Shown here: piece by piece, positions 24,237-41,580 of the stretch
Layout of the letters: each line of letters begins with the position of its first letter
Numbering within the stretch: the first letter of the stretch is position 1
From: Oligoflexia bacterium
Lineage (GTDB): Bacteria; Bdellovibrionota; Bacteriovoracia; Bacteriovoracales; Bacteriovoracaceae
DNA length: 64,000 bases
Reading direction: 5' to 3'
NCBI GenBank assembly: GCA_015231955.1
Contig: JADGAN010000001.1
Location: forward strand, 186,001-250,000
The notes under the pieces: generated by a model
Seen by the model: only the letters and a program-made list of their open reading frames with translations
Told to the model about the DNA's origin: nothing
Database searches by the model: none
Translations under genes and position numbers: made by a program

Positions 24237-24419
24237 ATGAACTATGAGTGCGCTTTAGATTCTAACATTGCATCAATAAGAGAAGACTTACAGGCAATGT
24301 CTGATTCATTACTTTCTACTTTTTCAATTTTTGACATTTCAGAAGACAATGCTGCGTTTGATTGTGGTAAATGCGGAAAATGCGGCAAAGCTTGTTGTGA
24401 TTACAGCGGCGGACGTTAA
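24237..24419 (+). CDS. Candidate RiPP precursor peptide with CGK-repeat core
   Basis: A 60-residue peptide. Residues 1-42 form a hydrophobic and acidic leader-like segment (IREDLQAMSDSLLSTFSIFD ISEDN region). Residues 43-60 are CGKCGKCGKACCDYSGGR, with five cysteines at 43, 46, 49, 53 and 54. The CGK unit is repeated three times and is also visible as a tandem 9-base pattern in the DNA. AAGGAG is 8 bases upstream of the ATG. It ends 17 bases before a cyclic-peptide-type ABC exporter and just upstream of four radical SAM enzymes, so a ribosomally made, post-translationally modified peptide is the natural reading. A small metal-binding protein is the alternative. The cluster class (thioether, other Cys crosslink) cannot be told from sequence. 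Confidence 0.75.
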   Translation: MNYECALDSNIASIREDLQAMSDSLLSTFSIFDISEDNAAFDCGKCGKCGKACCDYSGGR

Positions 24420-24436
24420 GAAGTAACCATTATAGT

Positions 24437-26554
24437 ATGAAAGCACTTATAAAACATCCATACGCAATCCCACGCTTTAAAGTAGGGAGAATATTGGGAT
24501 ACACTATTCTCCCTATCTTTTTTTTAATAATGTTACAATTTACAGATCTACCTCGGGCCACAGAAGGAATTAATGAATATGCAAATAAGATAAAACTATT
24601 TTTTATTTCAACGTCAGTGTTCTTTAAATATGCCTTCGTTATTTCTACTACACTATATGTGTCGCTGGTTTTGTCTAAAACGCTATTGCTTCTTACTCGT
24701 TTAAGAAAAATAAAAATGCTTCCCGGCTTGAATTCGATTTCAGTATCGTTGAATTTAATCCAAATCATCGTGTTTCACTTCCTTGTGGCCATGATTCTGT
24801 ATTCATTCGTCAATCCCATTATCTTTGATTTAACAAATAAAAATTTAAATTTATTTTCTCATGCTCTTCTGCCTCTAGTTATCCTTTCGTTTATTGTTGA
24901 ATGCCTCAATTTGATATTAAAAAGAGAAAGCGAGTCATCGTTGCATCCGTTGGAATATTTCAACTTAATAGCAATGGGTCTGCTTTCGGGAATATTTAAC
25001 TCACTTATAATTTTTTTCATAACGAATATATTACTGAGTAATCAATCTAATTATTTTGCACTTATTTGCTTTGGGTCTGTTTTTGTGGCGTATATCTATT
25101 TAAGGAAAAAAATTGAATCCCAATTAGTGAAGATTGCCCACAACACTTCTTTTGAAGTAAGAAATAAAATCATCCAAAAGATACTGGCATCAAAATACTA
25201 CTATTTTGAAAAAACAAAAAAAGAGACGATCCATACGACTCTCAATAACGATGCCGAAGTGATTGGTACATCGGCAAATACAGCAATTGTTATATTTACA
25301 AATATTGTGTCAGTGCTTTTTATTTTTGCATATTTATCAACGATTTCATTTGTTGCGACCATGATAATCCTAATAACAATCATATTAATTTCTTTGATCT
25401 ACTATGGAGTCAATCAAATTGCCAGAAATCACTGGGAAAATGCAAGAGATAGCCAAAACGTATTCATAAGACTGGTCGATGGGTTAATTTATGGGATCAA
25501 AGATATTATACTTCATTCTAATAAAAAAATGGAATATCAAAAAGATATCTACAGTGCGTGCCAGAGATATAAAAATGAAAAAATTGGAGCCTCTCTCAAA
25601 TTTGTCAATACTTATATTGTCGGCGAATCATTGATATTGATAGTACTCGGTCTTATAATATCGATACTACCGTTATACTTCAGTGAATTCACTGGAAAAA
25701 ATTTAATTAGTTTCGTTGTGATTTTCCTATATCTAACAGGACCTATTGGCACTGTTTTGTATAACATTCCTGAGATTACTCAAATACGAATATCATGGAG
25801 AAGGATCAGAAAATTAATATCTGATCTGAATAATATAAATCAGCACTGCGCAATAGTGACATTAGAAAAACATGATACTACCGCAGAAATAGTTGGCGTA
25901 AAAAAAATAGATAGGCTTGATGTTAATAATTTGTGTTTCAAATATGAAAACGACGAATCTCCCTTTGGAATAGGTCCGATAAATTTTAATTTGCATGCAG
26001 GTGAAGCGCTCTTTATTACAGGGGGAAATGGTAGCGGGAAAACTACTTTACTGAAAACAATACTAGGTTTATATCCGATCATCACAGGTGAGGTGAAGAT
26101 AAATGGCAGTGCTGTTACCGATGGAAGTTTGGGCGAATATTTCTCTGGTGTTTTCAGTGACTTTCATTTGTTTCACAAGTTATACGCTGGCCCTTCTAAT
26201 GATGACGAAGCGGCTGACATATTAAAAAAATTAGAGTTGGATCATAAAGTCAGCATGAGTGACAACCGTTACAGCACCCTTGGTCTGTCGAGGGGCGAAA
26301 GCAAACGTTTGGCACTTTTTCAGTGCCTACTAAGTGATCGGTCAGTTTATTTTTTTGATGAATGGGCGGCCGACCAAGATCCAAGATTTAAAAAGATTTT
26401 TTACCATCAGATTATTCCGATGATCAAAAAAAAGGGAAAGATAATTTTGGTTATCACTCATGATGATAACTATTTCCACACGGCAGACAAAATCATCAAA
26501 CTAGTCCAAGGAAAGATTCACTACAAAGAAGAGGCGAGCAATGAAGCATTTTAA
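24437..26554 (+). CDS. Cyclic-peptide-export ABC transporter (SyrD/PvdE/YojI type)
   Basis: A 705-residue fused permease-ATPase. The first ~470 residues hold multiple membrane segments, more than the usual six, with an N-terminal extension. The ATPase has Walker A GGNGSGKTTL near residue 532, signature LSRGESKRLALF and Walker B SVYFFDEWAADQDPRFKKIF. The FDEWAADQDP-F-FY block, and the later THDDNYFHTADKIIKL, are characteristic of the SyrD/PvdE/YojI cyclic-peptide exporter family. No C39 peptidase domain is present, so leader removal must be done elsewhere. It overlaps the first radical SAM gene by 14 bases. Likely role: export of the mature peptide across the inner membrane. Confidence 0.88.
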   Translation: MKALIKHPYAIPRFKVGRILGYTILPIFFLIMLQFTDLPRATEGINEYANKIKLFFISTSVFFKYAFVISTTLYVSLVLSKTLLLLTRLRKIKMLPGLNSISVSLNLIQIIVFHFLVAMILYSFVNPIIFDLTNKNLNLFSHALLPLVILSFIVECLNLILKRESESSLHPLEYFNLIAMGLLSGIFNSLIIFFITNILLSNQSNYFALICFGSVFVAYIYLRKKIESQLVKIAHNTSFEVRNKIIQKILASKYYYFEKTKKETIHTTLNNDAEVIGTSANTAIVIFTNIVSVLFIFAYLSTISFVATMIILITIILISLIYYGVNQIARNHWENARDSQNVFIRLVDGLIYGIKDIILHSNKKMEYQKDIYSACQRYKNEKIGASLKFVNTYIVGESLILIVLGLIISILPLYFSEFTGKNLISFVVIFLYLTGPIGTVLYNIPEITQIRISWRRIRKLISDLNNINQHCAIVTLEKHDTTAEIVGVKKIDRLDVNNLCFKYENDESPFGIGPINFNLHAGEALFITGGNGSGKTTLLKTILGLYPIITGEVKINGSAVTDGSLGEYFSGVFSDFHLFHKLYAGPSNDDEAADILKKLELDHKVSMSDNRYSTLGLSRGESKRLALFQCLLSDRSVYFFDEWAADQDPRFKKIFYHQIIPMIKKKGKIILVITHDDNYFHTADKIIKLVQGKIHYKEEASNEAF

Positions 26555-27737
26555 TTTTTGGCTGTATATTTCTAGAGCATGTAATCTTCGATGCACTTAT
26601 TGTTATCAAAGGCATCAGCGGGATATGATGACCTTGCATACAGCAAAAATAACAATCGAATGGATTATAAAAAATGCAGCAGAGTTCAATGTCAACACCA
26701 TATCTCTTGATTATTATGGTGGGGAACCACTTTTGAATTTTGATGTTTTCAAATACCTTCTGGAATATTCAACACAACTATCAAAACAAAATGGCATCAC
26801 AGTAGATCATTGCCTGTTTACTAATGGCATGTTGATGGACAGTAAGACCATTGAATTGATAAAGCAATTTGGTGTTACAACTCAAATGAGCATAGATGGA
26901 CCGCCTGAAGTACATGATGCAAATAGGATCAATGTAAATGGCGATGGAAGTTATAAGAAAATTATTGATAACATGAGAAAGAATAGGGCCATAGAGGAGT
27001 TAAGCCCCATTGCTAGTATGGTTGTAACTCCTGAAAACATCAAATCTTTTTACGATAATATAATTTATCTTAGAGATCTGGGTTTCAAGAGGATAATCTA
27101 TCACTTGGCATTAGACAAAGATGTTCAGTGGGGAAAGGAAGAAGCAATACAACTACTGGAAGCGATTGTCAAAATCATCAATGTCATTAACCTGAAATTC
27201 TCCAACGGAGGTATGACTTCAGATCTAATGGTTCAGCCACTAATGGATTTTTCATATTCTTATTATCGTGAATTGCTAAGACAAGAGGATGGTAAAAAAA
27301 ATATCAGCGAAAACAGCACAATTAAATGCGGTGCTGGAAGGAATAACTTTTCTATAAATTATAATGGAGACATCTATCCCTGCTCTAGGATTGTTGATGA
27401 TATTAATATTGATGAAGTTAAAAACAACTACCGCATAGGTAATGTACATTTAGGAATATGGAATAAAGAAAATTTGGAGAAATTTAAGTCGTGGATGCCA
27501 CGCATGTCAAGATCGAGTAAATGTTCCGAGTGTAATCACAGATACTGTTGTTCATACCAATGTTTTGCTTTATCTGAAAACAACCCTGATCACTTAGGTA
27601 ATTCTACCTCCAAAGAATCAATTATCGCATGCACTGTCACAGAGACAATAGCAAACGAAATAAAAACTCGAGTGCCAAAAATACCTATTGTTCCTACTGC
27701 GCCGACCATGGATACAAAGGAGACGCTGGATGCGTAG
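26541..27737 (+). CDS. Radical SAM/SPASM peptide maturase A
   Basis: A 398-residue enzyme. The SAM-binding 4Fe-4S motif is C14-x3-C18-x2-C21 (SRACNLRCTYCYQ), followed by the YYGGEPLLN block, the TNGMLM strand and SIDGPPEVHD. The C-terminal SPASM region has the expected auxiliary cluster cysteines: KCGAGRNNFSINYNGDIYPC, then CSECNHRYCCSYQC, and a late Cys in IIACTVTET. SPASM enzymes of this kind form thioether or carbon-carbon crosslinks, or oxidise residues, in ribosomal peptides. It overlaps the exporter gene upstream and maturase B downstream (8 bases), consistent with one transcript. Confidence 0.92.
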   Translation: MKHFNFWLYISRACNLRCTYCYQRHQRDMMTLHTAKITIEWIIKNAAEFNVNTISLDYYGGEPLLNFDVFKYLLEYSTQLSKQNGITVDHCLFTNGMLMDSKTIELIKQFGVTTQMSIDGPPEVHDANRINVNGDGSYKKIIDNMRKNRAIEELSPIASMVVTPENIKSFYDNIIYLRDLGFKRIIYHLALDKDVQWGKEEAIQLLEAIVKIINVINLKFSNGGMTSDLMVQPLMDFSYSYYRELLRQEDGKKNISENSTIKCGAGRNNFSINYNGDIYPCSRIVDDINIDEVKNNYRIGNVHLGIWNKENLEKFKSWMPRMSRSSKCSECNHRYCCSYQCFALSENNPDHLGNSTSKESIIACTVTETIANEIKTRVPKIPIVPTAPTMDTKETLDA

Positions 27738-28860
27738 AACACTGACTATTATTACTACAAACAAGTGCAATCTTTCGTGTGAATATTGCTTCGTAAAAGA
27801 TAAAAAAGAGCTAGCGTCTATAGATGAGGTTACGCTTAAAAATGGAATCGAATGGTTTATCAATCAATCACTGTTGTCAAAAAATAAATCAGATAGTTTG
27901 AGATTTGTTTTTTTTGGTGGTGAACCACTGATTGAATTTAGCAAGATAATATATTCAGTGAATTTAGCAAAAAGCATTTGCAAAGAGGCCAATATCCAGT
28001 GTGGTTTTCAGATTATCACCAATGGAACACTCTTCAATAAAAACATTGAAAGATTTTGTATAGAAAACGACATTGATATTCAAGTAAGTATTGACGGTGC
28101 CAATGAAGGACACAGAAAACCAAGCACGGAAAAAAACAAAACAACAAAGCATGACCACATCATAAACAACACGAGAAATCTTCTTGAGACGAATTTAAAC
28201 ATTACTGTGAATATGGTTTATTCTGCAAGTAAAGTAGACGATATTTTTAGCAACTTTTCGTTCTTGATAAATCTTGGAATAAAAAACATAAGACTAAGAC
28301 CTTCCATTGGATTCGATGACAAGTGGGACTTAAAAAAACTAAAAGATGAAATGAAAAAAGTTCTGGATGTGGCAATTAATAACTCTCAATTAAACATACA
28401 TCCCTTTAAGTATCTTCTGAATGAGTCTAGACGGATTGAAGATGTTCTTTCTAATGATCCAAGATATAACCTAGATAATGAAGTATATTGTGAGGTTGGA
28501 AAAAACAATCTGTGCTTAAACACGAATGGAGATGTTTATCCTTGTCATCGATTTGTTTTTGACAATGATAGCAATTTGTTTTTATTTGGAAATGTGAATA
28601 GCAATATGTTCTCAGTTGATAAGATAAGAAGCTTTTTATCTTATCGACCACGGCGTGATGGTGGATGCAAAAATTGTGAATATAAATATCTTTGCGATAA
28701 TCAGTGCCTATACGCTTTTTATGAAAAGAATAGAAACCTGAACGATGCTGACACTTGCCTGTGTACTGTAACCAAGGCAGTGCTAAGTCTCATGGTAGAA
28801 GAAGGATTGATTAAAACCAAAAAACAGTTTAACCACACTGCAGAAGGTGCTTGCTTATGA
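27730..28860 (+). CDS. Radical SAM/SPASM peptide maturase B
   Basis: A 376-residue enzyme starting at MRRTLTIITTNKCNLSCEYC with C13-x3-C17-x2-C20. The FFGGEPLIEF and SIDGANEGHR blocks follow. The SPASM segment includes YCEVGKNNLCLNTNGDVYPC and CKNCEYKYLCDNQC, with a final pair in DTCLCTVT. AAGGAG lies about 7 bases before the ATG at 27730; the longer frame to 27688 lies inside maturase A. It is similar in length and layout to A and C, which suggests serial duplication. Shares ATGA with maturase C. Confidence 0.92.
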   Translation: MRRTLTIITTNKCNLSCEYCFVKDKKELASIDEVTLKNGIEWFINQSLLSKNKSDSLRFVFFGGEPLIEFSKIIYSVNLAKSICKEANIQCGFQIITNGTLFNKNIERFCIENDIDIQVSIDGANEGHRKPSTEKNKTTKHDHIINNTRNLLETNLNITVNMVYSASKVDDIFSNFSFLINLGIKNIRLRPSIGFDDKWDLKKLKDEMKKVLDVAINNSQLNIHPFKYLLNESRRIEDVLSNDPRYNLDNEVYCEVGKNNLCLNTNGDVYPCHRFVFDNDSNLFLFGNVNSNMFSVDKIRSFLSYRPRRDGGCKNCEYKYLCDNQCLYAFYEKNRNLNDADTCLCTVTKAVLSLMVEEGLIKTKKQFNHTAEGACL

Positions 28861-29954
28861 ACGATACACTAGGTTTGAACGCACAGTTTTTTATAACAAA
28901 AAACTGCAATTTGAAATGCAGTTATTGTTTTGAATCAACCTCACCTTGTTCGAGAGATACTTTAAATAAAACCGATATGTCCATTGAAACATTCTCGAAG
29001 GCGATAACCTTTATCGCTAGTAAATTCAATAGATCTAGGTTTGACTATATTAATGTTTTTTTCTTGGGAGGTGAAGTTTTACTAAAAGTGAACAACCTCA
29101 TTGAAATGGCCACAATCGTGGATGAAGTTGCTTCGAAATTTAAGATCAAGATGATTAAAACTATCACGACCAATGGAACTCTTCTTAGTAGAAATACTTT
29201 TGACAAATTATGTGAAAGAGAAATTAAGTTTGCAATAAGTTTAGATGGGGAAAAAGAAGAGCATGACTATAACAGAAAGTTGCCAAGTGGAGCAGGTTCT
29301 TATGACCTCATTTGGAGAAACGGCGATGTTCTCAAGGATGCCATTGATAAGAAAATATGCACTTGTGTCCTTATGACAATAAATAAAAAAACGTTGAATA
29401 ATATCTATAAAAACATTGTTCACCTGATAGATAGTGGTTTCACGAATATTAAACTTAATTTTGCAACAGAAGAGATGTCCCCATTGTTGCTAGATGATAA
29501 CTGGAACCATATCTCTAGTTCGCTCAGAGATGCTTTTTGTTATGCAAAGAAGAATAATGTTCATATTTACCCTCTGGATTTAGTCTCTAATTCAATTAAA
29601 AACAAAACAACCTTTAATCAAACAGAGCTTAGGTGTGGAGTTGGAAGTAGTATTATTACAGTGGATAGTGACGGCACTATAGCACCTTGTGCAAAATTTT
29701 TCGACAACAACATTGAACTATTCACAATGGGTAATGCTCTTACTGGAGAATTGAAAAATGAAGTATTTAATTTCTTTACGACACTTCCAAAAAATAAAAA
29801 ATTAAAATGTAACTCATGCGAAGATCAAGGAAACTGTGTAACGTATTGCCCCTCACTTGCTTTGAAAAATAGCAATTTGTTCTGCCCCCCAGAAACTATG
29901 TGTAAAATAAATAAAATAATACACCAATCACTCAATACCATATCTGAGGTTTAA
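28857..29954 (+). CDS. Radical SAM/SPASM peptide maturase C
   Basis: A 365-residue enzyme with C17-x3-C21-x2-C24 (KNCNLKCSYCFES). The family block is FFLGGEVLLKV, so the usual GGEP proline is Val here. SISLDGEKEEHD-type and TTNGTLLS blocks follow. SPASM cysteines lie in RCGVGSSIITVDSDGTIAPC, CNSCEDQGNCVTYC and the end (FCPPETMC). The ATG at 28857 overlaps the maturase B stop as ATGA. It is the third SPASM enzyme in a row, so either each acts on a different residue of the precursor or they act in sequence. Confidence 0.9.
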   Translation: MNDTLGLNAQFFITKNCNLKCSYCFESTSPCSRDTLNKTDMSIETFSKAITFIASKFNRSRFDYINVFFLGGEVLLKVNNLIEMATIVDEVASKFKIKMIKTITTNGTLLSRNTFDKLCEREIKFAISLDGEKEEHDYNRKLPSGAGSYDLIWRNGDVLKDAIDKKICTCVLMTINKKTLNNIYKNIVHLIDSGFTNIKLNFATEEMSPLLLDDNWNHISSSLRDAFCYAKKNNVHIYPLDLVSNSIKNKTTFNQTELRCGVGSSIITVDSDGTIAPCAKFFDNNIELFTMGNALTGELKNEVFNFFTTLPKNKKLKCNSCEDQGNCVTYCPSLALKNSNLFCPPETMCKINKIIHQSLNTISEV

Positions 29955-29955
29955 T

Positions 29956-30171
29956 ATGAAAGATATAACAAAGAAAGATCTTATGGATAGTGCAGAAATT
30001 TTCCTCGAAGATATTATACTGAAGTTGCAACATAGTGAAAACTATGAACAAAATATTATGCTAGCAAAAATCCTTATTGATTATATGGAATTGGCAAAAT
30101 TTAGAAACAATTTTTCTCAAGTCCAAGGCAAGATGAATGCCTTGCTAGATAAAATTTCTAATAGGAAGTAG
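29956..30171 (+). CDS. Small helical protein in the peptide cluster
   Basis: A 71-residue protein without cysteine, predicted all-helical (DLMDSAEIFLEDIILKLQH; YEQNIMLAKILIDYMEL; VQGKMNALLDKI). It begins two bases after maturase C and ends two bases before the B12-type radical SAM gene, so it is firmly in the operon. It lacks the beta-sheet pattern of a PqqD-like recognition element. It may be a subunit or scaffold of the maturases; function unknown. Confidence 0.65.
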   Translation: MKDITKKDLMDSAEIFLEDIILKLQHSENYEQNIMLAKILIDYMELAKFRNNFSQVQGKMNALLDKISNRK

Positions 30172-30173
30172 CC

Positions 30174-31520
30174 ATGAATGTGTTAGCGGCGACACTGCCA
30201 TCATTGGCAGACAAAGCACTTGTACTTCAAAACTTAAACTATATCTGCAATTACAGCAATGGAAGTGGCATAGATATTGTCGATTATCCCCAGCACGACC
30301 TAGTACAAGTGGCCGCAGTACTAAAAAAAATAAACATTTCAAACCTAATCGTTAAAGATTATGAAAATAAACCATTATGGATACTAGAAAAAGACATATT
30401 AAGTAATAATGTAGATTGTTTTGTGTTCGATTCTACAAGTTTCCAGATAATTGATCATGTAAATGTTGTGCTTAAAACCTATGAAAAGATAAAAAGCATT
30501 AACCCAAAGACAGTAACCATTTTATCAGGTCGTGATCCGAGCTTTTTTGCAAAAGAGATGATTAAAATTACTGATTCTATAGATATCATAATCAAAGGTG
30601 AGATCGAAGAAACACTGAAAGAATTGATTCTTTTTATAAACAAAGACAGTGACCTAAGTTCCATAAAAGAAAGAGATGAATTGAAAAAGATAAATGGAAT
30701 TGTTTTTAAAAAAAACAACGGCGAAGTGGTAGAGACTGGCCCCAGAGAACTTATCGAAAACCTAGACTCGATACCTTTTCCTGCGTATGAATATTTGAAT
30801 TTGAAAAGTAATTCAACTGTTTCTATTTTTAGTGCCAGAGGATGTCCATTTTCTTGCAATTTTTGTTATAAAATGTTTAGAAAGGTTAGAGCACACAGTC
30901 CTCAGTATGTCATAGATTCAATGAGTCACCTCTATAATAAGTTTGGAGTAACTAGTTTTACATTTGATGATGAAATTACAGGAACAAATATTTCATGGCT
31001 GAAAGAGTTCTTTGAACTGTCCACTAAATTAGCATGGAAACCAACATACCGTTGTTATGCCAGAGCTGATTTGATCAATGAAGAGAGAGTTGAGTTGCTA
31101 AAGAAGTCTGGGTGCATACAGATCAGGATGGGAGTTGAGTCTGGTTCTCCCACGATTTTAAAAGAGATGAATAAAAAATTAAATTTAAACAAGGTCGAAG
31201 CAGCGTTTGAATGCATCAAAACACATGGGATCGATACGGTGGCTTTTATTCTATTGGGTTATCCTCCGGAAGATCATCAGACTATCAATGAGACCATAGC
31301 GTTTTTAAAAAAAATAAAACCATCCGTTGTATCTGCAAAAATACTTCAAGTACTTCCAGGAACCAAACTATATTTTGATTTAAAAGGGAAAAACTATCTG
31401 GATGATACATACTATTTTTTCAACAGGGGAAAAGTTATTCCTTCGTCAACGCTTACTTATTTAGAGTTAAATAATTATATGAATCAAATAAACAGGATGT
31501 TCAACAGTAATGGCAATTAG
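30174..31520 (+). CDS. B12-binding-type radical SAM protein
   Basis: A 448-residue enzyme. The N-terminal ~170 residues have the Rossmann-like layout of a cobalamin-binding domain (VAAVLKKINISNLIVKDYEN, DCFVFDSTSFQ, ILSGRDPS, DIIIKGEIEETLKELI) but no DxHxxG, so any cobalamin would bind base-off without His ligation. The radical SAM core has SARGCPFSCNFCYK near residue 222. FDDEITGTN, RCYARADLINEERVELLKKS and MGVESGSPTILKEMNK follow, as in the Elp3/MiaB-like B12 subgroup. Such enzymes often methylate unactivated carbons. AGGAAG precedes the ATG; it overlaps the next gene by 11 bases. Confidence 0.85.
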   Translation: MNVLAATLPSLADKALVLQNLNYICNYSNGSGIDIVDYPQHDLVQVAAVLKKINISNLIVKDYENKPLWILEKDILSNNVDCFVFDSTSFQIIDHVNVVLKTYEKIKSINPKTVTILSGRDPSFFAKEMIKITDSIDIIIKGEIEETLKELILFINKDSDLSSIKERDELKKINGIVFKKNNGEVVETGPRELIENLDSIPFPAYEYLNLKSNSTVSIFSARGCPFSCNFCYKMFRKVRAHSPQYVIDSMSHLYNKFGVTSFTFDDEITGTNISWLKEFFELSTKLAWKPTYRCYARADLINEERVELLKKSGCIQIRMGVESGSPTILKEMNKKLNLNKVEAAFECIKTHGIDTVAFILLGYPPEDHQTINETIAFLKKIKPSVVSAKILQVLPGTKLYFDLKGKNYLDDTYYFFNRGKVIPSSTLTYLELNNYMNQINRMFNSNGN

Positions 31521-33978
31521 TATCAAAGAGTACATTCCTGAATATGTTGAAGATTATATTATTTTTTGGAATAAAGCAGAAAACATTTGTCCAGGAGGGT
31601 ACATCCCGAGTGGTGCTTACTCTAAAGAAGAATATTTTCACAATGACACACATCGGATGCTATTTTGTAGATTTGTAGCATTTGACGATGATCTAATGAT
31701 TGGAAGCGTGGATTTCTTTTTTATAGACGAAAATATTTTAAGCGCTCACTATTTCCATGTACTCCCAGATTATCAAAGACAGCATGTTGGCGTAGAGTTA
31801 TTGTATCATTCATTTCAAAAAATTTTAGATTACAATAAAGAAGGCGGTGCGATTTGGTACTTCAAAACTGATTCATGGGAGTCTAATTTTGCAGCAAGAA
31901 ATATCTTAACCCAAATATTCAAAGGGATTGAATCTACTGTAGGTGAGTATGTCTTGGTCTGGCCCGCAATTTCTGCATTTGAAGGAGGTAGGCGATTTAT
32001 TGATAAGCATAATCTTTGGGGGATCAAGGATCAAATAAATAGTTTGACGCTAGATTGTTATGATGAAGATGTTTATCAATATACCATGAAAAAACAAGAG
32101 GAAAGCCTCTCCATGGAGATAGATCTTTTCCAATCTCCAAAACACTTAGCATTAAAAAATTCTGTGTTAAAACAAGAGATAATCTTAGAAGGGAGTAAAC
32201 AAAAAACTGAAATAAAAAACCATCCTAATGAAAACATTGTATGTGGAAATTTAGAAGTAAAGTTTTGTGCTGAAGACAGGAAGTATGTTTTGTTTTTCAA
32301 AAAAAAACCAATGGTGGTTCAGTATTATGATCAATTAGGGGATAAATTTCTTGATTTTTCCGAGGCCAACTCTAATTTAGAAATAGAAATAGAAATTGAT
32401 TGTGAAAAAATCATAAATAGAATCACCGTTAGCATCTATTATAAAAATATAAATATATACATTACGAAAGAATATCTATTCGATCCTATTGATAATACTT
32501 TCAAGGTCATGTCTTATATTCACGGGAAACATCCATTTCCCCTTTCAATATCAAGAGGGACTTACTGCCTTCTTAAGCAACCAAAGATTGTCATTAATCA
32601 CAAAACTGGCATCTTTGCCCAAGACGTATTCTTCAATCAGTTTCCTGGTGATAGATATTTTGATTTAAGTCCTGATCCATGTGATTATTCTAGAATTTGG
32701 ACTGGTTTTGTTGAAGGTGATGTTCTTGTTCGTTACTCATGCGAAAGTGATTTTGCTGAGAGAATCAAATATGGGCAAACATCTATGCCATCTGTTTATT
32801 TTAAGATGCAAGAAGTGCCTTCCATTAAAAAATTATTTTCGACTGAATTATTTCACATAAGAGATAATTTTAACCCCAATTATCTTTGCACATATTTCAA
32901 TTATCATTCAATAGATAAGCAACTACCCATTTTCAATGGGACAACAGGATATCGCTTTGTAAATCTAGATAATGATTGCTGCTTTAATAATCGACTTAAA
33001 TTTGAAATTTGGTCTATTCGAAAGAAGAAGGAATTATGTGAAGTAAATATCAGAATTGCTGGTGTTAGTTACAGTGAATGTATTTGGATTGAAAATAGAG
33101 AGAAGAGGGTAATATGCATAGATACCAGCAGTCTTCATAGCGGAATACACTGTGCGATAATCGAAATAAAAAACTCTATAGGAATTACAAAAGATCAAAT
33201 AGTACTAGCAAAACCCTACCCAATTATAAATCAATCTAAATCTCAAATCTCATACTCTGTGGAAAATGATAAGTCAGGAGGGTTATCTTCCCTCTTCGTT
33301 AACGGAACCAATGTCTTGAGCGTAGCAAAGCAGAGGCATAATATTTTAAATTACGTAACACCACTCTCTTGGTCTTTGTTAAAAAACAGGTTGTCTGATC
33401 ACCCACACAACAATATTGGTTCTGGTTTATATGAGCAGGAAAACTTTTACGAAAATAGCAAATGTACAAAAAAAAGCCTACCTGTAAAGCAAGAATCAGT
33501 AATGGAAAACAATTTCTCCATACTGAAATATTACTCAATCTCATCTTTGAATCTTTTTGCTTCAATATTTGAAACGAAAGATACTGTTGGTTTTAAATCA
33601 GCAGTATTTAGCACTTTTTTAAACAAAGACTATGTCGATTACTTGGTCATTGTTGGCGATGATGGCAATGATGTTATATTGCCTAAGAGTAATTTCTCCT
33701 ACTTTAAATATTTCAAAGAAGTAGTGAAAATCAAAAATCCAAACAGCACCTCACTTGATCACATCTATTTTCAAGGAGACTGTTCTGAAGTTTTTGTAAG
33801 TTTCTATCCAGAAGAAGGATTTCAAGTTATTATGTATTTGAATAACATTAATATTAAAAAACCAACAAAAGCTGGCGTTATGTTTTTGTTTGACATTCCA
33901 AACGATATAAAAAAAGTACAAAAAGATTTGATTAACAATTTGTTATTCAACGTAACCATGAGTAACTTCAAGGAATAA
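31510..33978 (+). CDS. GNAT acetyltransferase fused to large domain of unknown function
   Basis: An 822-residue protein. Residues 1-155 have a GNAT fold pattern (IKEYIPEYVEDYIIFWNKAE, a central strand MIGSVDFFFID, and YFHVLPDYQRQHVGVELLYH, which resembles the acetyl-CoA loop with its third Gly replaced). The remaining ~600 residues are rich in beta strands and aromatic residues, with no signal peptide or membrane segment and no motif that I recognise. It could acylate the peptide, or the large domain could be a substrate-binding or cyclodehydratase-like module; nothing visible decides this. It overlaps the B12-type radical SAM gene upstream. Confidence 0.7.
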   Translation: MAISIKEYIPEYVEDYIIFWNKAENICPGGYIPSGAYSKEEYFHNDTHRMLFCRFVAFDDDLMIGSVDFFFIDENILSAHYFHVLPDYQRQHVGVELLYHSFQKILDYNKEGGAIWYFKTDSWESNFAARNILTQIFKGIESTVGEYVLVWPAISAFEGGRRFIDKHNLWGIKDQINSLTLDCYDEDVYQYTMKKQEESLSMEIDLFQSPKHLALKNSVLKQEIILEGSKQKTEIKNHPNENIVCGNLEVKFCAEDRKYVLFFKKKPMVVQYYDQLGDKFLDFSEANSNLEIEIEIDCEKIINRITVSIYYKNINIYITKEYLFDPIDNTFKVMSYIHGKHPFPLSISRGTYCLLKQPKIVINHKTGIFAQDVFFNQFPGDRYFDLSPDPCDYSRIWTGFVEGDVLVRYSCESDFAERIKYGQTSMPSVYFKMQEVPSIKKLFSTELFHIRDNFNPNYLCTYFNYHSIDKQLPIFNGTTGYRFVNLDNDCCFNNRLKFEIWSIRKKKELCEVNIRIAGVSYSECIWIENREKRVICIDTSSLHSGIHCAIIEIKNSIGITKDQIVLAKPYPIINQSKSQISYSVENDKSGGLSSLFVNGTNVLSVAKQRHNILNYVTPLSWSLLKNRLSDHPHNNIGSGLYEQENFYENSKCTKKSLPVKQESVMENNFSILKYYSISSLNLFASIFETKDTVGFKSAVFSTFLNKDYVDYLVIVGDDGNDVILPKSNFSYFKYFKEVVKIKNPNSTSLDHIYFQGDCSEVFVSFYPEEGFQVIMYLNNINIKKPTKAGVMFLFDIPNDIKKVQKDLINNLLFNVTMSNFKE

Positions 33979-33984
33979 TTGGAC

Positions 33985-34782
33985 ATGGATATTGTTATAA
34001 AAAAACTTAGACCATTTAAAATTGACCCAGATATTGTCAGATGGACTGTTACTCTTCATGCACTGGAATGTCTTTTTAAGCGCCTCCCCTCCATGCCTAT
34101 GAACGTTCACGGGGGTACATCAATTCTTGATCAATGTTCCAGCATAGATATACATAATGTAACATCATTTAATAAAATTATTAATTCAATATTTACTCAA
34201 ATACAAGGTAATATCCCACAAGATATTATTCTGAATTATTTTGAATTGATTCATTTGTATCCTTTGTTAGAAAGGCAATTTTTTTACTCACCAAAATTTT
34301 TTGATAAAATATTCAGAACTACCCTTTTTGATTTTTCAATTACCAACGAGGTGTTAAGGAGGCACAAAAAGTTTAACCTCAATCAAATAATATTTTTTAT
34401 AACAAGCGGTGACGATGTTCAGTCAATTGATATCCCTGTTTTGAAAAATCACGTGGTAAATTCTGAATTTAGAGTTTTTATCTCCTCAACCATCGACCGC
34501 CATCTTTTCTCTCAATTGTGCGATCTCAATATTGATCTATTGGTGGATATAAATTTCTTTTTAGAAAATATTGATTATTACTCAAGTAACAACAATAAAG
34601 GAATTAGATCTATTGAGTTAATTGGAGACCTTACTGGCAAAAATCAAGATTTGGTTGATAGCATCTTAAATTCCGAACAATACCAGTTGATATTCAGAAA
34701 AATAACGAAAATAAGCGATGAAGATTGTAGTAATAAAACTTATATGCATAATTTTTTCACAAAACTAAAGGGGAAAACATGA
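33985..34782 (+). CDS. Unknown protein in the peptide cluster
   Basis: A 265-residue soluble protein that I do not recognise. It has alternating helix and strand character (VRWTVTLHALECLFKRLP; FELIHLYPLLERQFF; FRVFISSTIDRHLFSQLCD). AAGGA sits 10 bases before the ATG at 33985, which is preferred to the TTG at 33979. It shares ATGA with the following protease gene, so it is translationally coupled to it. Its position after the modifying enzymes leaves tailoring, carrier or immunity roles open. Confidence 0.65.
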   Translation: MDIVIKKLRPFKIDPDIVRWTVTLHALECLFKRLPSMPMNVHGGTSILDQCSSIDIHNVTSFNKIINSIFTQIQGNIPQDIILNYFELIHLYPLLERQFFYSPKFFDKIFRTTLFDFSITNEVLRRHKKFNLNQIIFFITSGDDVQSIDIPVLKNHVVNSEFRVFISSTIDRHLFSQLCDLNIDLLVDINFFLENIDYYSSNNNKGIRSIELIGDLTGKNQDLVDSILNSEQYQLIFRKITKISDEDCSNKTYMHNFFTKLKGKT

Positions 34783-35534
34783 TGATATCCTTGCTGGCTG
34801 CACTGATCACCATAGGGACTTTCTTGCCGACAAGAAGTTTTATCCATTTGGGAATAATTGCTTTGGTAAATTTTTTATTTATTGTTCTTACACTAAAAAA
34901 GCCATCGCTTTCAAAAGTGAGAACATTACTTTTTTTTAACGTGCTGTTTTTGATTATTAAAACTACATTCCTGTTCCTTGATTATGACTATTTTTCAACA
35001 ATTCTTCCTTCGTTGATTTTGCTGATTATATTTTACAAGGCTTTGACAAAGGAAAAGATCTCTTCATTCTTTAAATTTAGCAATCCACTGTCTTTTACTT
35101 TCATCCTTTACACTGTTGTTTCAGCAGCAGGGTTAATATTTTGGTATAAGATTGCAAATCCTACGCTTCCTATGGAAATGGATTTAAAAAGTGCTAGCAT
35201 TTTAAAAATAATTACAATCGGAGCAATGTTTTCATTAATTAATTCATTCTATGAAGAAATAATTTTCCGTGGAATTTATTTGAAGTTTTTAAGCAATGCT
35301 ACTAGTAGCACATTTATTGCAATAACGGTTCAAGCGATTATCTTTGGTTTAATTCACTTCTTGAACGGAGTGCCCTCTGGTTTTATCGGAGTTCTGCTTA
35401 CATTTTTTTATGCACTAATGATGGGGCATCTATATTTAAAAACCAAGAGTCTGGTTCCATGCATAATAGCACATCTACTTTGCGATGGAGTGGTTTACGG
35501 GCTAATCGTCTTCAATAATTTGGGGAAAATATAA
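34779..35534 (+). CDS. CPBP-family intramembrane protease (Abi/CAAX-like)
   Basis: A 251-residue membrane protein with about seven hydrophobic segments. All CPBP active-site motifs are present: FYEEIIFRG (EExxxR) near residue 157, FGLIHF (FxxxH) and AHLLCDG (HxxxD-type). Members are glutamic intramembrane proteases; in bacteriocin clusters they act in leader processing or self-immunity. The exporter here lacks its own peptidase domain, so this is the best visible candidate for leader cleavage. That role is inference. Coupled to the preceding gene by ATGA. Confidence 0.85.
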   Translation: MMISLLAALITIGTFLPTRSFIHLGIIALVNFLFIVLTLKKPSLSKVRTLLFFNVLFLIIKTTFLFLDYDYFSTILPSLILLIIFYKALTKEKISSFFKFSNPLSFTFILYTVVSAAGLIFWYKIANPTLPMEMDLKSASILKIITIGAMFSLINSFYEEIIFRGIYLKFLSNATSSTFIAITVQAIIFGLIHFLNGVPSGFIGVLLTFFYALMMGHLYLKTKSLVPCIIAHLLCDGVVYGLIVFNNLGKI

Positions 35535-35550
35535 AAAGGAAGGAATTTAG

Positions 35551-36195
35551 ATGATAAATAGTAGTGTAAAATATCATGATCAAAATTCAGCAAATTACGA
35601 TAAATCCTATAAAAATCCATACTGGAAGATATATAAGGAAATAACTTGGAATTATATAAAAGACTATCTTCCTCCCACCAAAAAAAGATCATTAATTCTA
35701 GATGCTGGTGGAGGAACAGGTGAATGGGCAATAAGACTTGCAAAACTTGGGTACAATGTTGTTCTTGCAGATGTATCTGAAGGTATGCTTGATGTAGCAG
35801 TAACTAAAATTAAAAAACTTAAATTAGGGAATAAAATTACAGTTATGAATCTTGATATATGCAAAATGCATCTTCTAGATTCAAAGCAATTCAATCTTAG
35901 TCTTGCCGAAGGTGATCCCGTTTCCTATTGTAGCAACCCCAATAAAGCAATTTCTGAACTATCTCGGGTTACCAAGATTGGTGGTTATGTAACCGTCTCA
36001 GTCGATAATAAACTCAGATGGGTTTCGGGGCTAATTAAAAATGGCCACCTAAAAGAAGCTCAGATTTCCTTAAAAAGCGGTATTGGGTATATGCGAGCAG
36101 GACATGATGATCAATTTCCTGCTCATATGTTTACAATCGAAGAACTGTCGGTTCTGTCGCACGATCCTCCATTGATTTTATTTAACATCGATTAA
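35551..36195 (+). pseudogene. Class I SAM-dependent methyltransferase, 3' end cut by IS
   Basis: AAGGAAGGA precedes the ATG. The N-terminal part is a standard Rossmann methyltransferase: ILDAGGGTGEWAIRLAKLGY (motif I), NVVLADVSEGMLDVA (motif II), LSLAEGDPVSYCSN, and the late helix ISELSRVTKIGGYVTVSVDN. The IS left end at 36150 falls after residue 199 in HMFTIEELSV, a block that normally continues for a further 30-60 residues. The last ~15 codons are IS-derived and end at 36195. The catalytic fold may be incomplete. In an intact ancestor it would have been the last gene of the peptide cluster and a candidate tailoring enzyme. Confidence 0.75.
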
Positions 36196-36979
36196 TGCCG
36201 ATGAAGATAAAGCGAAATTGTTTTTGTAATTTCAGGGATGGCTTGATGGCTCATATGAATCGATCACCTTTCTCCAATGATATTATTTTGCTTGCGATAC
36301 ACTGGTATCTTCGATATGCACTCAGCTATCGCGACCTAGAGGAAATTTTAGAAGAGCGCGGAATTGAGGTGGATCACTCCACCATCAATCGGTGGGTAAA
36401 AAGATACACTCCTGATATCGAGAAAAATTTCAGAAAAAGAAAAAGACCCACTGGCGGATCATGGCGAATGGATGAAACCTATGTCAAAGTTAAAGGCGTT
36501 TGGAAATATCTTTATCGAGCTGTAGACAAGGAAGGCAACACCATTGATTTCCTTTTGACAAGCAAGAGAGATACTGCTGCTGCTCATAGATTTTTCAAGA
36601 AGGCTATCAATAACAACGGCGTCCCAGATAAAATTAACATTGACAAGAGTGGTGCCAATAAGGCCGGCATACAAACCTATAATGAAAGGAATGGGTTCAA
36701 TATTGAAATAAGAGAGTGCAAATACCTCAATAACATTGTCGAGCAAGATCATCGATTCATAAAAAAAATTATACGGCCTATGCTTGGTTTCAAAAATTTC
36801 AATTATGCACGAATAACCTTGGCCGGAATTGAAATAGTAAGGATGATAAAGAAGGGACAGCTGTGCCTGGAAAACAGTGCAAATCTTACTGTTGCTGAGC
36901 AATTTTATTCATTGGCTTTTTAACACGGAACTGCCCCTATGGGGGAATCTGATCAAAATTTCAAGGATGCGACAGTACC
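36150..36979 (+). mobile_element. IS6-family insertion sequence, 830 bases
   Basis: The ends carry inverted repeats GGTTCTGTCGCA (36150-36161) and GGTACTGTCGCA (complement of 36968-36979), one mismatch in 12. Size and single transposase match the IS6 family. The flanking 8-mers, GAACTGTC on the left and TCATACAG on the right, are not identical, so no target duplication is seen. Together with truncated genes on both sides this points to an IS-mediated deletion or rearrangement. Confidence 0.88.
36195..36923 (+). CDS. IS6-family DDE transposase
   Basis: A 242-residue transposase with the family layout: SNDIILLAIHWYLRYALSYR DLEEIL, the HTH block VDHSTINRWVKRYTP, and the DDE residues in RMDETYVKVKG, NIDKSGAN and IVEQDHRFIKK. 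IIRPMLGFKNF and the terminal IEIVRMIKKGQ block complete the match. It appears full length, so the element may be active. The start is uncertain: ATGs at 36195, 36246 and 36255 are in frame, and family members usually begin close to the NRSPFSNDIIL block. Confidence 0.93.
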   Translation: MPMKIKRNCFCNFRDGLMAHMNRSPFSNDIILLAIHWYLRYALSYRDLEEILEERGIEVDHSTINRWVKRYTPDIEKNFRKRKRPTGGSWRMDETYVKVKGVWKYLYRAVDKEGNTIDFLLTSKRDTAAAHRFFKKAINNNGVPDKINIDKSGANKAGIQTYNERNGFNIEIRECKYLNNIVEQDHRFIKKIIRPMLGFKNFNYARITLAGIEIVRMIKKGQLCLENSANLTVAEQFYSLAF

Positions 36980-37444
36980 TCATACAGTGCTGTTTGTAAA
37001 TTGCTTGTAGACAGAAATTTGAATATACCATTATCGGAATTATTTAAGGGTGAGGTATTTTATCAAAACAGATTTGATTCCAGGTATGATTTACAGGCAG
37101 CATCTTTTGTGGAATTTATATTAACAAAGTATGGTAAGAATAGCTTGAGGAAGGCATTTGCTCAATATGAACCACCTAGCGATGCGAACCCTATTTGTGA
37201 TATGAATATTTTTCTAAGATCTACTTTTGGTGAGACACTTCTTTGCTTAGAAGACGGGTGGAAGCAATATTTAAATGCTTTTGATGCAAAAAGTGAAGAG
37301 TTAATGAAGGTCAGGCCGATTTTGATACCGCTGGTGATCCCTAAATCTAAAAGATGTGCCTTTTGTTATTCTCCTATTCGAGAGGAAAGGGATGACTGTA
37401 ATTTCTGCAACAACAAACTAGTGTCTGTGAAATATCTTTTTTAG
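36980..37444 (+). pseudogene. 5'-truncated gene fragment, peptidase-MA-like C-terminal region
   Basis: The frame is open from the IS right end (YSAVCKLLVDRNLNIPLSEL) to the stop at 37444, about 154 codons. No ribosome site supports the TTG at 37001, so the gene has lost its 5' part. The block DLQAASFVEFILTKYGKNSL RKAF resembles the helix after the active site in gluzincin (peptidase-MA-like) proteins; the zinc motif itself would be in the lost part. The C-terminus has a CAFCYSPI...CNFCNNK zinc-ribbon-like pair. Probably non-functional. Confidence 0.6.
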
Positions 37445-38255: not shown

Positions 38256-38969
38256 ATGTCTAGAATTAATGTTCAGAGTGTAACAAAAAAAATCATCGTG
38301 ATGATTTTTTTATTTATGTTTTGTATGATAAGTTTAGTATCAACTCTCTTTGCCACTGAAGATCTCGCTTGCTCTTCTCCTAATATGTCACTTAAATCGT
38401 GCTTACTTGTTCTTCAGAGGGAACTCGCTGATAGTAAACGGAAAATTTTAGAACTAGAACAATCTCGGGCCGCTCAACAAGAGCTCTCCGCCTTGAAAAC
38501 TTTTACAATTGGAGGCGACTCTCAATACTATTACCCTGTATGGTTTGCTGATAACTGTTGGCATGAGGGGGAAACAAAGTTAGTCATCTCTAGGGCCAGT
38601 ATCCACACCAATGGAGAATGGGCCGGAAGTGTGAATATCCGCTTTGTTTATCACTCTTTTGCTTGTGGTCACGGCTCATCCTTTTTAGATGCTGCTATTG
38701 AATATACCAATGCTGGTACTAGTGCTAATCGTGGTCCCTTTATTGCTAACTTTGATTCTACCAATGGTTGCAGTGCAGGCGGAATTGTTGTGTGGTTAAG
38801 AGGAGGTGGGTTGACCTATAATTATAAATCAAGTTGTACTGTGTCTCCAGTTTTTTCTACGACTGAACCGATTACCATCCCTGGAAGCAATGTCCTCAGG
38901 GAGAAAACCGATAAAATAGATGCAAAAGTAACAAGTATTATGGGAATGGGTTTACAACACATACATTAA
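38256..38969 (+). CDS. Secreted coiled-coil fibre-like protein 1
   Basis: A 237-residue exported protein. A signal peptide (basic start, hydrophobic core to about residue 32) is followed by the module LACSSPNMSLKSCLLVLQRE, with Cys-x9-Cys, running into a heptad-like coiled coil (LADSKRKILELEQSRAAQQE). The C-terminal domain begins FTIGGDSQYYYPVWF and is beta-rich with paired cysteines. It ends with GLQHIH. AGGAG precedes the ATG. The same N-terminal module occurs in the next three genes with different C-terminal domains, which suggests oligomeric fibres with interchangeable tips. Function is inferred from architecture. Confidence 0.7.
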   Translation: MSRINVQSVTKKIIVMIFLFMFCMISLVSTLFATEDLACSSPNMSLKSCLLVLQRELADSKRKILELEQSRAAQQELSALKTFTIGGDSQYYYPVWFADNCWHEGETKLVISRASIHTNGEWAGSVNIRFVYHSFACGHGSSFLDAAIEYTNAGTSANRGPFIANFDSTNGCSAGGIVVWLRGGGLTYNYKSSCTVSPVFSTTEPITIPGSNVLREKTDKIDAKVTSIMGMGLQHIH

Positions 38970-38986
38970 AAAAAAATGGAGTTTCA

Positions 38987-39895
38987 ATGAATCTTTCACG
39001 GACACAAGCAAAAACAAAAATAATGTTAATAGGGCCTTCACTCCTCTTGATAGCAACATTAATGATCCCTTTCTTGTTCTCGTTCTCGGCCAAGGCCGTT
39101 GATCCTGTCTCTTGCGATCAACCAGGAATGAGTTTGAAACAATGTTTAGCTTCTCTACAAAGAACGATCAATGCTTTAGTTGTCGAGAACACCGCCTTAA
39201 CTAATCGTCTTAACGATAAGGTCCCCTCTCTCCCCAATATTTGGAAAAATAGTAAGTTTTTAGTATTAGCTGATCCCACTGGAACCCCATCAACAACGAA
39301 TAATCTCAAAGATTGGGTTCCTCATACTCATGGAGGGGCCATTGTCACTTATGAACCTGTATCAAAATATACAAGTGGTTTCGTGGGTATCTATGCTGAA
39401 AAAACAAGTCCCTCCTATTACGATAGAGCGAATGGTTTTCAATCGGCAACAGAAAAAAACCCTTTCTGGTATGGCGCTTGGGATACAGGTCCAAGAATTT
39501 CAAGAGAAGGGTGGAACAACTCCAGTTTTGATATCCTAAAACTTCACGTCTCTGCCGGTTTAAATGCTGGAAGAATCAATCAATCTCAATCAAAGACGAT
39601 TCACTCTCCAACAAGCAAATATGTTTTCAGTATGTATGTTAAGTTTTTACAAGGCAGTTCCTTTGGTGTCAGCCAAGATGTTTTGAATACTGCTGCTATT
39701 ATTTCTCGAACCGAATGTGACAAAAGTCCTCAAGGGTGGTGTCTCTTTAAAGGGGAGTTTTATGGATATTCCACTGATAATCCTTACCTCGGTTTTGGAA
39801 AACCTTTAGGAGATACCAGTGAGCTTGAAGTTTTAGTGGCCCTTCCTTACATCTATTCTAATGAAGCTCTTTGGGCCGCTCATCCTGGTGAGTAA
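38987..39895 (+). CDS. Secreted coiled-coil fibre-like protein 2
   Basis: A 302-residue exported protein. The signal peptide ends near FSAKAVD. The shared module VSCDQPGMSLKQCLASLQRT (Cys-x9-Cys) leads into INALVVENTALTNRLNDK, a short coiled coil. The C-terminal ~230 residues are unrelated to protein 1 and rich in aromatic residues and Gly (NPFWYGAWDTGPRISREGW), as in carbohydrate-binding beta-sandwich folds; no specific family is recognised. GGAG lies 8 bases before the ATG. It follows protein 1 after 17 bases. Confidence 0.7.
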   Translation: MNLSRTQAKTKIMLIGPSLLLIATLMIPFLFSFSAKAVDPVSCDQPGMSLKQCLASLQRTINALVVENTALTNRLNDKVPSLPNIWKNSKFLVLADPTGTPSTTNNLKDWVPHTHGGAIVTYEPVSKYTSGFVGIYAEKTSPSYYDRANGFQSATEKNPFWYGAWDTGPRISREGWNNSSFDILKLHVSAGLNAGRINQSQSKTIHSPTSKYVFSMYVKFLQGSSFGVSQDVLNTAAIISRTECDKSPQGWCLFKGEFYGYSTDNPYLGFGKPLGDTSELEVLVALPYIYSNEALWAAHPGE

Positions 39896-39959
39896 GCACA
39901 AAAAGAAGAGGTCAAAGTAATAGCAATAGTAACAGTATTCTTATCTCTAGGATAAAAAA

Positions 39960-40628
39960 ATGACACGTTTAGCATTGATTGTTGGCTTGATTTTAATGGT
40001 GGTGGCACCTTCTTTATCTTTTAGTTCTGAAACCGATGATCTTTGTCCCATCGGTGCTCCTATTAGTGTCTGTGTAAAACAGTTAAGGGCCAAAATTGTA
40101 GAGCTTGATCAGGCCGTTAAAGAAATCAAAAAACCGACGACGCCTGTGGTGGTTGCCGATCCCAATGCTCTTGTCTATCGACGCCTTAGTGTTTTTAGCT
40201 TTATCCATCCTGCTGAAGGTTATCCTGCAGGATCGGAATGGAAAACAGCTTGGTACCATCTTTTTACTCCCGTTAAAAATAAGGGCCAAGAGATGTTCCG
40301 TTATGATTTGCATGGTTATTCTTACGCCGAAGGGATGCCTTTAGATTTGACCTGGGTGGGTTACTACTATTTCCATTATGACGATTTTAATCAGCAACAT
40401 GCTTTAGATCGCAGTAATATGATCTCTAAACAACCCGATTTTAAAGTATCCATGTATACGACAAAGAAGGGGTTTTTAGTTTTAAAGTTTGGCCCTATCA
40501 GCAGGTACCATAATAGCTTTACTTTGGATTACCAATCAGGTTCGAATGGCCCTCGGGAGACCGATCATTCAGCTCAAAACTATCGGGCCGTGATTACGGA
40601 TGGGGATGTTGAACTTAAAGACGAATAG
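39960..40628 (+). CDS. Secreted coiled-coil fibre-like protein 3
   Basis: A 222-residue exported protein with signal peptide (residues 1-22). A shorter version of the shared module, DLCPIGAPISVCVKQLRAKI (Cys-x8-Cys), continues into VELDQAVKEIKK. The C-terminal domain (LSVFSFIHPAEG, YYYFHYDDF, GFLVLKFGPISRYHN) has a beta-strand pattern with many aromatics, like the receptor-binding ends of fibre proteins; this resemblance is only by composition. AGGA precedes the ATG by eight bases. Confidence 0.68.
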   Translation: MTRLALIVGLILMVVAPSLSFSSETDDLCPIGAPISVCVKQLRAKIVELDQAVKEIKKPTTPVVVADPNALVYRRLSVFSFIHPAEGYPAGSEWKTAWYHLFTPVKNKGQEMFRYDLHGYSYAEGMPLDLTWVGYYYFHYDDFNQQHALDRSNMISKQPDFKVSMYTTKKGFLVLKFGPISRYHNSFTLDYQSGSNGPRETDHSAQNYRAVITDGDVELKDE

Positions 40629-40674
40629 TTCCTGAAATTTAATTGAGTCAATCATGACGGAGGATTTATTTCAT

Positions 40675-41580
40675 ATGCATTATCAACAAAGAAGACTCTT
40701 ATTCATAAGTCTGTTTTTATTAACTCTTTTTATCAACTTTCTTTCTTTTCCACTGCAAGTGCAAGCGGGTGAACTCTCTTGTAGGGGGTTGCCACTTGTC
40801 GATTGTATTAACAGATTAATCGATCAGGTCAATCAGCAAGATCATTTATTACGAGTGGCCACTCAAAGTGATCTGATGGAACAAGGACTGCTCTATTTTC
40901 CTTTTGATAACAATCTTAACGATGCTGGGCGATTTCACTTTTTAGCAAGAAAAACTTCTGAAACGATGAAAGAGACTTTTACAAACGATCGCAAGGGGCA
41001 GACCTACAAAGCACTTCTTTTCTCATCGGCAGAACAGAGTTGTTTGGAATTAACCTCAACAGAGAAAAGTAATGCCAATCTTCATGGATCGTTTACGCTC
41101 GGGGCCTGGGTGAAGGTTTCTCCTGATGCCGATTTTTCATCAGGCGGAAGCATGATTGTGGCCAAACACTATACTTGTGGGCAACGATCTTTTGATTTAT
41201 CGTTTGCTCATGGATATAAGACCAAAGTAAGGTTTACTCTTTATAATGCTTCCGATTCGGCACCTCCACCCTCTTATGTCAGTGGTGAACATTATATTCA
41301 TTTTGATTTTCCCGCCGATGGAGGATGGCATCTTGTTATTGGCAGTTATGACTATCTTTCTGGTAAAATGATGCTCTTCCTTGATGGAGAACTGAAGCAG
41401 GATGCCTCTATCGGAGCAGTTGAAATCAAGCAAACAGAGCAAACGATCACCATCGGCTGTTACCATAATTCTTCTAGCTCTGTTAGCTTTAGAGGGTATT
41501 TTAATGGAGGCATTGATGATGTTTTTGTTTTAGATCGTGCAGTCTCTGAAAGTTGGGCCAAAGTGATGTCTCTTCTCTGA
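40675..41580 (+). CDS. Secreted LamG-like (concanavalin-fold) protein 4
   Basis: A 301-residue exported protein. After the signal peptide (ends near VQAGE) comes a module LSCRGLPLVDCINRLIDQV (Cys-x7-Cys) and short coiled coil. Residues from about 85 form a LamG/concanavalin-like domain: GLLYFPFDNNLNDAG, GSFTLGAWVKVSPDADF, GGWHLVIGSYDYLSGKMMLF and YFNGGIDDVFVLDRAVSE are typical strand blocks. Such domains bind glycans or proteins. Start at 40675 is preferred because GGAGG is 11 bases upstream; an ATG at 40654 precedes that site. Last of the four-gene series. Confidence 0.78.
   Translation: MHYQQRRLLFISLFLLTLFINFLSFPLQVQAGELSCRGLPLVDCINRLIDQVNQQDHLLRVATQSDLMEQGLLYFPFDNNLNDAGRFHFLARKTSETMKETFTNDRKGQTYKALLFSSAEQSCLELTSTEKSNANLHGSFTLGAWVKVSPDADFSSGGSMIVAKHYTCGQRSFDLSFAHGYKTKVRFTLYNASDSAPPPSYVSGEHYIHFDFPADGGWHLVIGSYDYLSGKMMLFLDGELKQDASIGAVEIKQTEQTITIGCYHNSSSSVSFRGYFNGGIDDVFVLDRAVSESWAKVMSLL

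Follow-up and report, generated by a model that had tools for sequence, protein, structure and literature searches.

A tightly packed operon predicted to make a radical SAM-modified, cysteine-rich peptide in an Oligoflexia bacterium

In a 64,000-nucleotide stretch of an Oligoflexia bacterium genome (assembly GCA_015231955.1, contig JADGAN010000001.1, positions 186,001 to 250,000 of the forward strand; here called the window), 11 genes follow one another in tight succession on the plus strand between positions 24237 and 36195. Judging from the families to which they belong, these genes probably form an operon for a ribosomally synthesized and post-translationally modified peptide (RiPP), in which a 60-amino-acid precursor would undergo thioether crosslinking by SPASM radical S-adenosylmethionine (SAM) enzymes, a B12-type radical step, acylation, leader cleavage, and export. 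An earlier note on this DNA had listed a Cys-rich peptide gene, a SyrD/PvdE-type exporter, three SPASM radical SAM enzymes, a B12-type radical SAM enzyme, a GNAT fusion, two genes without known family, a CPBP protease, and a methyltransferase, nearly all overlapping or within about 20 bases, and had read them as a RiPP cluster. All of these genes are present on the same strand where the note had placed them, their domain assignments hold, and the intergenic gaps range from -14 to +17 bases (in gene order 17, -14, -8, -4, 1, 2, -11, 6, -4, and 16). The RiPP reading itself is well supported by the Cys-rich peptide heading a tight operon, the SPASM enzymes of thioether-forming type, and the cyclic-peptide exporter.

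The first gene encodes the putative precursor, which consists of a leader, MNYECALDSNIASIREDLQAMSDSLLSTFSIFDISEDNAAFD, and a Cys-rich C-terminal tail, CGKCGKCGKACCDYSGGR. An AAGGAG ribosome site precedes its start at 24237, and the next gene of the operon lies 17 bases away. The arrangement by which RiPP loci are recognized, a short encoded precursor beside modifying enzymes, is therefore present. Since only 6 of 2,501 small open reading frames (ORFs) in 345 kb of the same genome have at least 5 Cys within 12 residues, a Cys-rich tail at the head of an operon is unlikely to be a chance occurrence. The Cys residues of the CGKCGKCGKACC tail are spaced as in freyrasin, and the core contains a Cys-Gly-Lys repeat, three regularly spaced Lys, and a single aromatic residue, Y56, with no Trp.

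The CxxxCxxC motif and the SPASM motif CX2CX5CX3C are intact in all three SPASM enzymes, with enzyme 3 scoring slightly under the Pfam SPASM cut-off (20.2 versus 21.5). For each of them, the top NCBIfam model is the ranthipeptide maturase PapB (NF047865), at 194, 182.5, and 169.8 bits for enzymes 1, 2, and 3, respectively. A control enzyme from a Methylocystis plasmid, which adjoins an annotated freyrasin-family peptide, scores 411.8 bits, indicating that the model separates. NlpM, SCIFF, and QhpD rank after PapB, the models for the crosslinking maturases DynA, YhhB, and GrrM match more weakly, and the sactipeptide maturase model RumMC, with a cut-off of 720, gives 82.3 bits for enzyme 1 and 49.5 bits for enzyme 2. 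As only 10–16 residues precede CxxxCxxC in the window enzymes, compared with 17 in the Methylocystis enzyme and 93–111 in NlpM and QhpD, there is no room for an N-terminal leader recognition element (RRE), which is common but not universal among RiPP pathways. The alignment of enzyme 1 to the radical SAM structure 5wgg begins at 5wgg residue 100.

A tree was built from 26 radical SAM proteins, 12 of which are other SPASM proteins from the same genome. In it, PapB, NlpM, QhpD, an Anaerococcus enzyme, and a short Paraclostridium enzyme share a group with the three window enzymes (89/91), and the 12 other SPASM proteins lie apart from the window enzymes in 98% of bootstraps. Enzyme 3 pairs with the short Paraclostridium SPASM enzyme, which comes from a Cys-rich-peptide cluster (95/87). 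Since the three window enzymes share only 24–27% identity, they are not recent duplicates. From this family placement we infer that the product is crosslinked, as the earlier note had proposed.

The exporter scores 318.9 bits against TIGR01194, above the cut-off of 286.2, and contains Walker A, SRGESKR, DEWA, and THD motifs; its N terminus carries ~170 extra amino acids with no Pfam match, and no C39 peptidase domain was seen in it. The protease belongs to the CPBP family (PF02517, 70.7 bits; cut-off 22.4), with the CPBP/Rce1-like motifs EExxxR, FxxxH, and HxxxD present as EEIIFR, FGLIH, and HLLCD, and is a candidate for leader removal. The B12-type enzyme has Radical_SAM and weak B12-binding matches in Pfam, and its best model is ApyD (NF050148; 143.9 bits, cut-off 750), followed by BchE at 137.3 bits. 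In the GNAT fusion, the N terminus matches PF00583 (24.8 bits; cut-off 20.7), the remaining ~620 amino acids match no known family, and a single-sequence model of the C-terminal part, with a predicted local distance difference test (pLDDT) of 29, was unusable. The 71-amino-acid orphan matches no significant family and no RRE or PqqD model. The 265-amino-acid orphan matches no family above cut-off, and a fold search with its poor single-sequence model (pLDDT 50) returned no match; as for its being a degenerate radical SAM enzyme, it shows weak similarity to SPASM enzyme 3 (z 4.2 against pairwise shuffles), and a profile comparison did not rise above shuffles. The methyltransferase matches PF13649 at 54.8 bits.

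If the 60-amino-acid peptide is the precursor, with the C-terminal tail as its core, how would it be modified? Each of the short SPASM enzymes would install at least one thioether between a core Cys and a carbon of a neighboring residue, such as Lys, Gly, or Asp. The tolerance of PapB for Cys-Xn-Asp with n = 0–6 (PMC9413430) and the formation of Cys-Arg and Cys-Lys thioethers by RumMC2 (PMC8188230) make Lys a chemically plausible acceptor. The B12-type enzyme may add a radical step, probably C-methylation, for which the core Tyr is one candidate site; ApyD makes beta-methyltyrosine (PMC10635010). The GNAT domain could acylate an amine, either the new N terminus or a Lys. Leader cleavage at the membrane would fall to the CPBP protease, and export of the product to the TIGR01194 transporter. 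What the sequence itself shows is the gene content and order, the motifs, and the family placement; the substrate, the bond type, the modified sites, and the order of steps are what we infer from the protein families. In this reading, the methyltransferase was once part of the set. The product may serve as a secreted antagonist, a signal, or a metal ligand.

Table 1. Genes of the predicted operon and the adjoining insertion element, with positions in the window
Feature	Position	Strand	Basis
Putative precursor peptide, 60 aa	24237..24419	+	ORF, AAGGAG ribosome site, Cys-rich tail
Cyclic peptide export ATP-binding cassette (ABC) transporter, 705 aa	24437..26554	+	TIGR01194
SPASM radical SAM enzyme 1, 398 aa	26541..27737	+	PapB NF047865 best match; motifs
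SPASM radical SAM enzyme 2, 376 aa from ATG 27730 (most likely start)	27730..28860	+	PapB best match; motifs
SPASM radical SAM enzyme 3, 365 aa	28857..29954	+	PapB best match; motifs
Orphan protein, 71 aa	29956..30171	+	No significant family; no RRE/PqqD match
B12-binding-type radical SAM enzyme, 448 aa	30174..31520	+	ApyD best match, below cut-off
GNAT fusion, 822 aa	31510..33978	+	N-terminal PF00583; remainder without family
Orphan protein, 265 aa	33985..34782	+	No family above cut-off
CPBP/Rce1-like intramembrane protease	34779..35534	+	PF02517; motifs
Class I methyltransferase, truncated	35551..36195	+	PF13649; native sequence up to 36149
IS6-type insertion element, outside the pathway	36150..36979	+	DDE_Tnp_IS240; transposase ORF 36195-36923

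The methyltransferase reported in the earlier note is present, but it is not an intact last gene. An 830-base insertion sequence (IS) of the IS6 type starts inside it; the native frame ends at Leu199, and the last residues are encoded by the element. The transposase scores 144 bits against DDE_Tnp_IS240, the element ends are GGTTCTGTCGCA and TGCGACAGTACC, and a near-identical copy (identity 100% as rounded) lies on contig C88 (7749-8578). Since no 8-base target duplication was seen at the element, the adjoining DNA has probably undergone a deletion, which may have taken further genes with it. Thus, the 3′ end of the cluster is probably missing, and tailoring of the product by the interrupted methyltransferase is doubtful. 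Directly to the right of the element, an ORF at 36980-37444 is open from the junction, has CxxC pairs near its end, matches no family, and may be what is left of a larger gene. Farther on, 38256-41580 holds four consecutive predicted secreted proteins that share an N-terminal motif resembling MSLKxCLxxLQR; the two that were tested have no Pfam match. On the other side of the cluster, third-position G+C in its genes does not differ from that in the genes upstream. The pair of tRNA-Ser genes immediately upstream was considered as an integration site, but no att-like repeat was found downstream and the idea was set aside.

Several observations weigh against a pathway of thioether-forming SPASM enzymes. 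No maturase model is matched above its cut-off (for PapB, 170–194 bits versus 340), and assigning a thioether bond would be an extrapolation at 22–29% identity. Asp and Glu acceptors are nearly absent from the core, with D42 just before it and D55 inside. The search for an RRE in the cluster was negative, in that none of its proteins has a PqqD-type match, although one of the orphans could contain an RRE too diverged to be recognized. As no relatives of the precursor were found, with nothing convincing in its own genome (next match E 0.5) or in plasmids, conservation of leader and core cannot be shown. Finally, the tree has long branches and several open forks, and we therefore use only its broad placement.

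Could the same genes be read differently? One rather unlikely possibility is that the SPASM enzymes of a RiPP operon form C-C or C-O bonds, giving cyclophane or Lys-linked rings, while the Cys stay as thiols, disulfides, or metal-bound. The matches to DynA, YhhB, and GrrM and the regular spacing of the core Lys are consistent with such rings, but Y56 is the sole aromatic residue available, and the models ranking first for all three enzymes are of thioether type, in agreement with the tree. That the CGKCGKCGKACC tail is itself the ligand of a secreted metal-binding peptide, tailored by the radical enzymes and the acyltransferase into a metallophore or metal buffer that leaves by siderophore-type ABC export, seems to us quite improbable: its Cys are dense and regularly spaced and a plasmid TIGR01194 relative adjoins siderophore genes, but no metal receptor or regulator lies inside the operon, where we looked, and thioether-type enzymes would use up the thiols. 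It is very unlikely that the 60-amino-acid peptide is incidental and that the real target of all three SPASM enzymes is a different protein, as it is for QhpD. Although QhpD, which matures an enzyme subunit, is near in the tree and the RRE is lacking, the peptide heads the operon beside an exporter, with a ribosome site and a Cys-rich tail, and no QhpC-like gene is found among the cluster proteins.

Another question is whether the operon still functions. It may have decayed or fallen silent, with the methyltransferase and the 3′ end lost to the IS element and the remaining genes set to follow. The position of the element inside a gene, the missing target duplication, and the unmatched ORF that opens the right flank are all compatible with decay, and no sigma-70-like promoter was found upstream of the operon. 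However, promoter scans are a weak kind of evidence, every other gene is open, and catalytic motifs are intact where they are known, and we consider decay unlikely.

The earlier note had seen no obvious known match for the cluster, and our searches agree: none of the named maturase or precursor families is matched above cut-off, and no close relatives of SPASM enzyme 1 or the GNAT fusion were found. The GNAT fusion was found in 1 of 291 genomes of the phylum, its own, and in none of the 290 others, and SPASM enzyme 1, at E 1e-30, in 1 of 389 relatives, again its own genome. A peptide-pattern scan with SPASM enzyme 1 across 84,980 genomes, designed to detect close relatives only, gave one remote match (22%). 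When the top candidates per genome were scored, an exporter above the TIGR01194 cut-off occurred in 1 of 369 genomes of the phylum, the same one. No close relatives were found in viral contigs, for which three proteins were searched, or in plasmids, and the other SPASM loci of the genome hold no second copy of the system. This distribution fits acquisition from elsewhere, but neither the third-position G+C nor the search for an att-like repeat at the neighboring tRNA-Ser genes points that way. The papers searched describe no class that combines three SPASM enzymes, a B12-type enzyme, and a TIGR01194 exporter, and the full set with the GNAT fusion and CPBP protease is likewise absent from them and from sequence collections. 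Pathways of this kind are familiar, but neither the gene combination nor the peptide corresponds to a described family.

The genome is rich in SPASM genes. Its 23 matches at E 0.001 are the most among the 58 family genomes examined (next 15), and several of these genes adjoin B12-type radical SAM genes (loci L026, L028, L030, L032, and L033). On contig C89 (L039, 4687-8166), an ORF of 82 amino acids, a SPASM enzyme, an ABC transporter, and a small TPR-like protein stand in a row and may represent a second peptide locus.

More tentatively, the cluster might define a RiPP class of its own, a possibility that we rate below even. Three different RRE-less SPASM enzymes would act in turn on the Cys-Gly-Lys repeat to give a novel crosslink pattern (e.g., Cys-Lys or Cys-Gly thioethers of alternating topology). 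C-methylation and N-acylation would follow, a membrane protease would remove the leader, and a siderophore-type transporter would export the product. Provided that such a product is made, PapB-like thioether chemistry would reach acceptors beyond Asp and Glu, the cluster would show a division of labor among SPASM enzymes lacking recognition domains on one short repeat, and radical SAM peptides would be connected to an exporter family familiar from cyclic-peptide and siderophore systems.

How does the cluster compare with known systems? PapB/freyrasin-type ranthipeptides also use a short SPASM enzyme without an N-terminal RRE. On a Methylocystis plasmid (L056, 6968-8363), such a PapB-family enzyme adjoins a freyrasin-family peptide with the tail CDTCDLCDKCDTLDWC, in which, as in the window peptide, Cys occupies every third residue (CDTCDLCDKCD). 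However, these systems have one maturase rather than three and use the Asp/Glu acceptors that the window peptide nearly lacks, the window enzymes stay below the PapB cut-off, and the freyrasin precursor model NF037957 gives no match for the window peptide (compared with 70.8 bits for the Methylocystis peptide at a cut-off of 30). The aminopyruvatide enzyme ApyD (PMC10635010) resembles the B12-type enzyme as its best match, in its RiPP context, and in the presence of Tyr in the window core. Unlike that system, the cluster has no MNIO or P450, the score is far below 750 with BchE nearly equal, and ApyD carries an RRE (PMC10635010), whereas none was found in the window enzyme. The clusters for the sactipeptides ruminococcin C and thuricin CD likewise encode at least two radical SAM enzymes each but differ in their peptides and tailoring genes, and RumMC is matched weakly by SPASM enzymes 1 and 2. 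The window exporter has the score and the DEWA motif of the TIGR01194 (SyrD/PvdE-type) family, but it sits beside SPASM enzymes, whereas the two plasmid relatives examined lie in peptide-synthetase or siderophore loci.

A parallel in overall plan is a cluster on the Paraclostridium sordellii plasmid NZ_CP124282.1. It combines three radical SAM genes, including that of the short enzyme that pairs with SPASM enzyme 3, with a protease, an ABC exporter, and a Cys-rich peptide of 52 amino acids. It differs in that its two long enzymes belong to another branch, its protease is a serine protease instead of a CPBP protease, its peptide is different, its transporter is only a distant ABC relative, and its annotation lists neither a B12 enzyme nor a GNAT fusion nor a methyltransferase. 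The earlier note's view that no described class has this exact gene set thus agrees with the papers and sequence collections searched, but the general plan of three radical SAM enzymes with a Cys-rich peptide and an exporter has a precedent in Paraclostridium.

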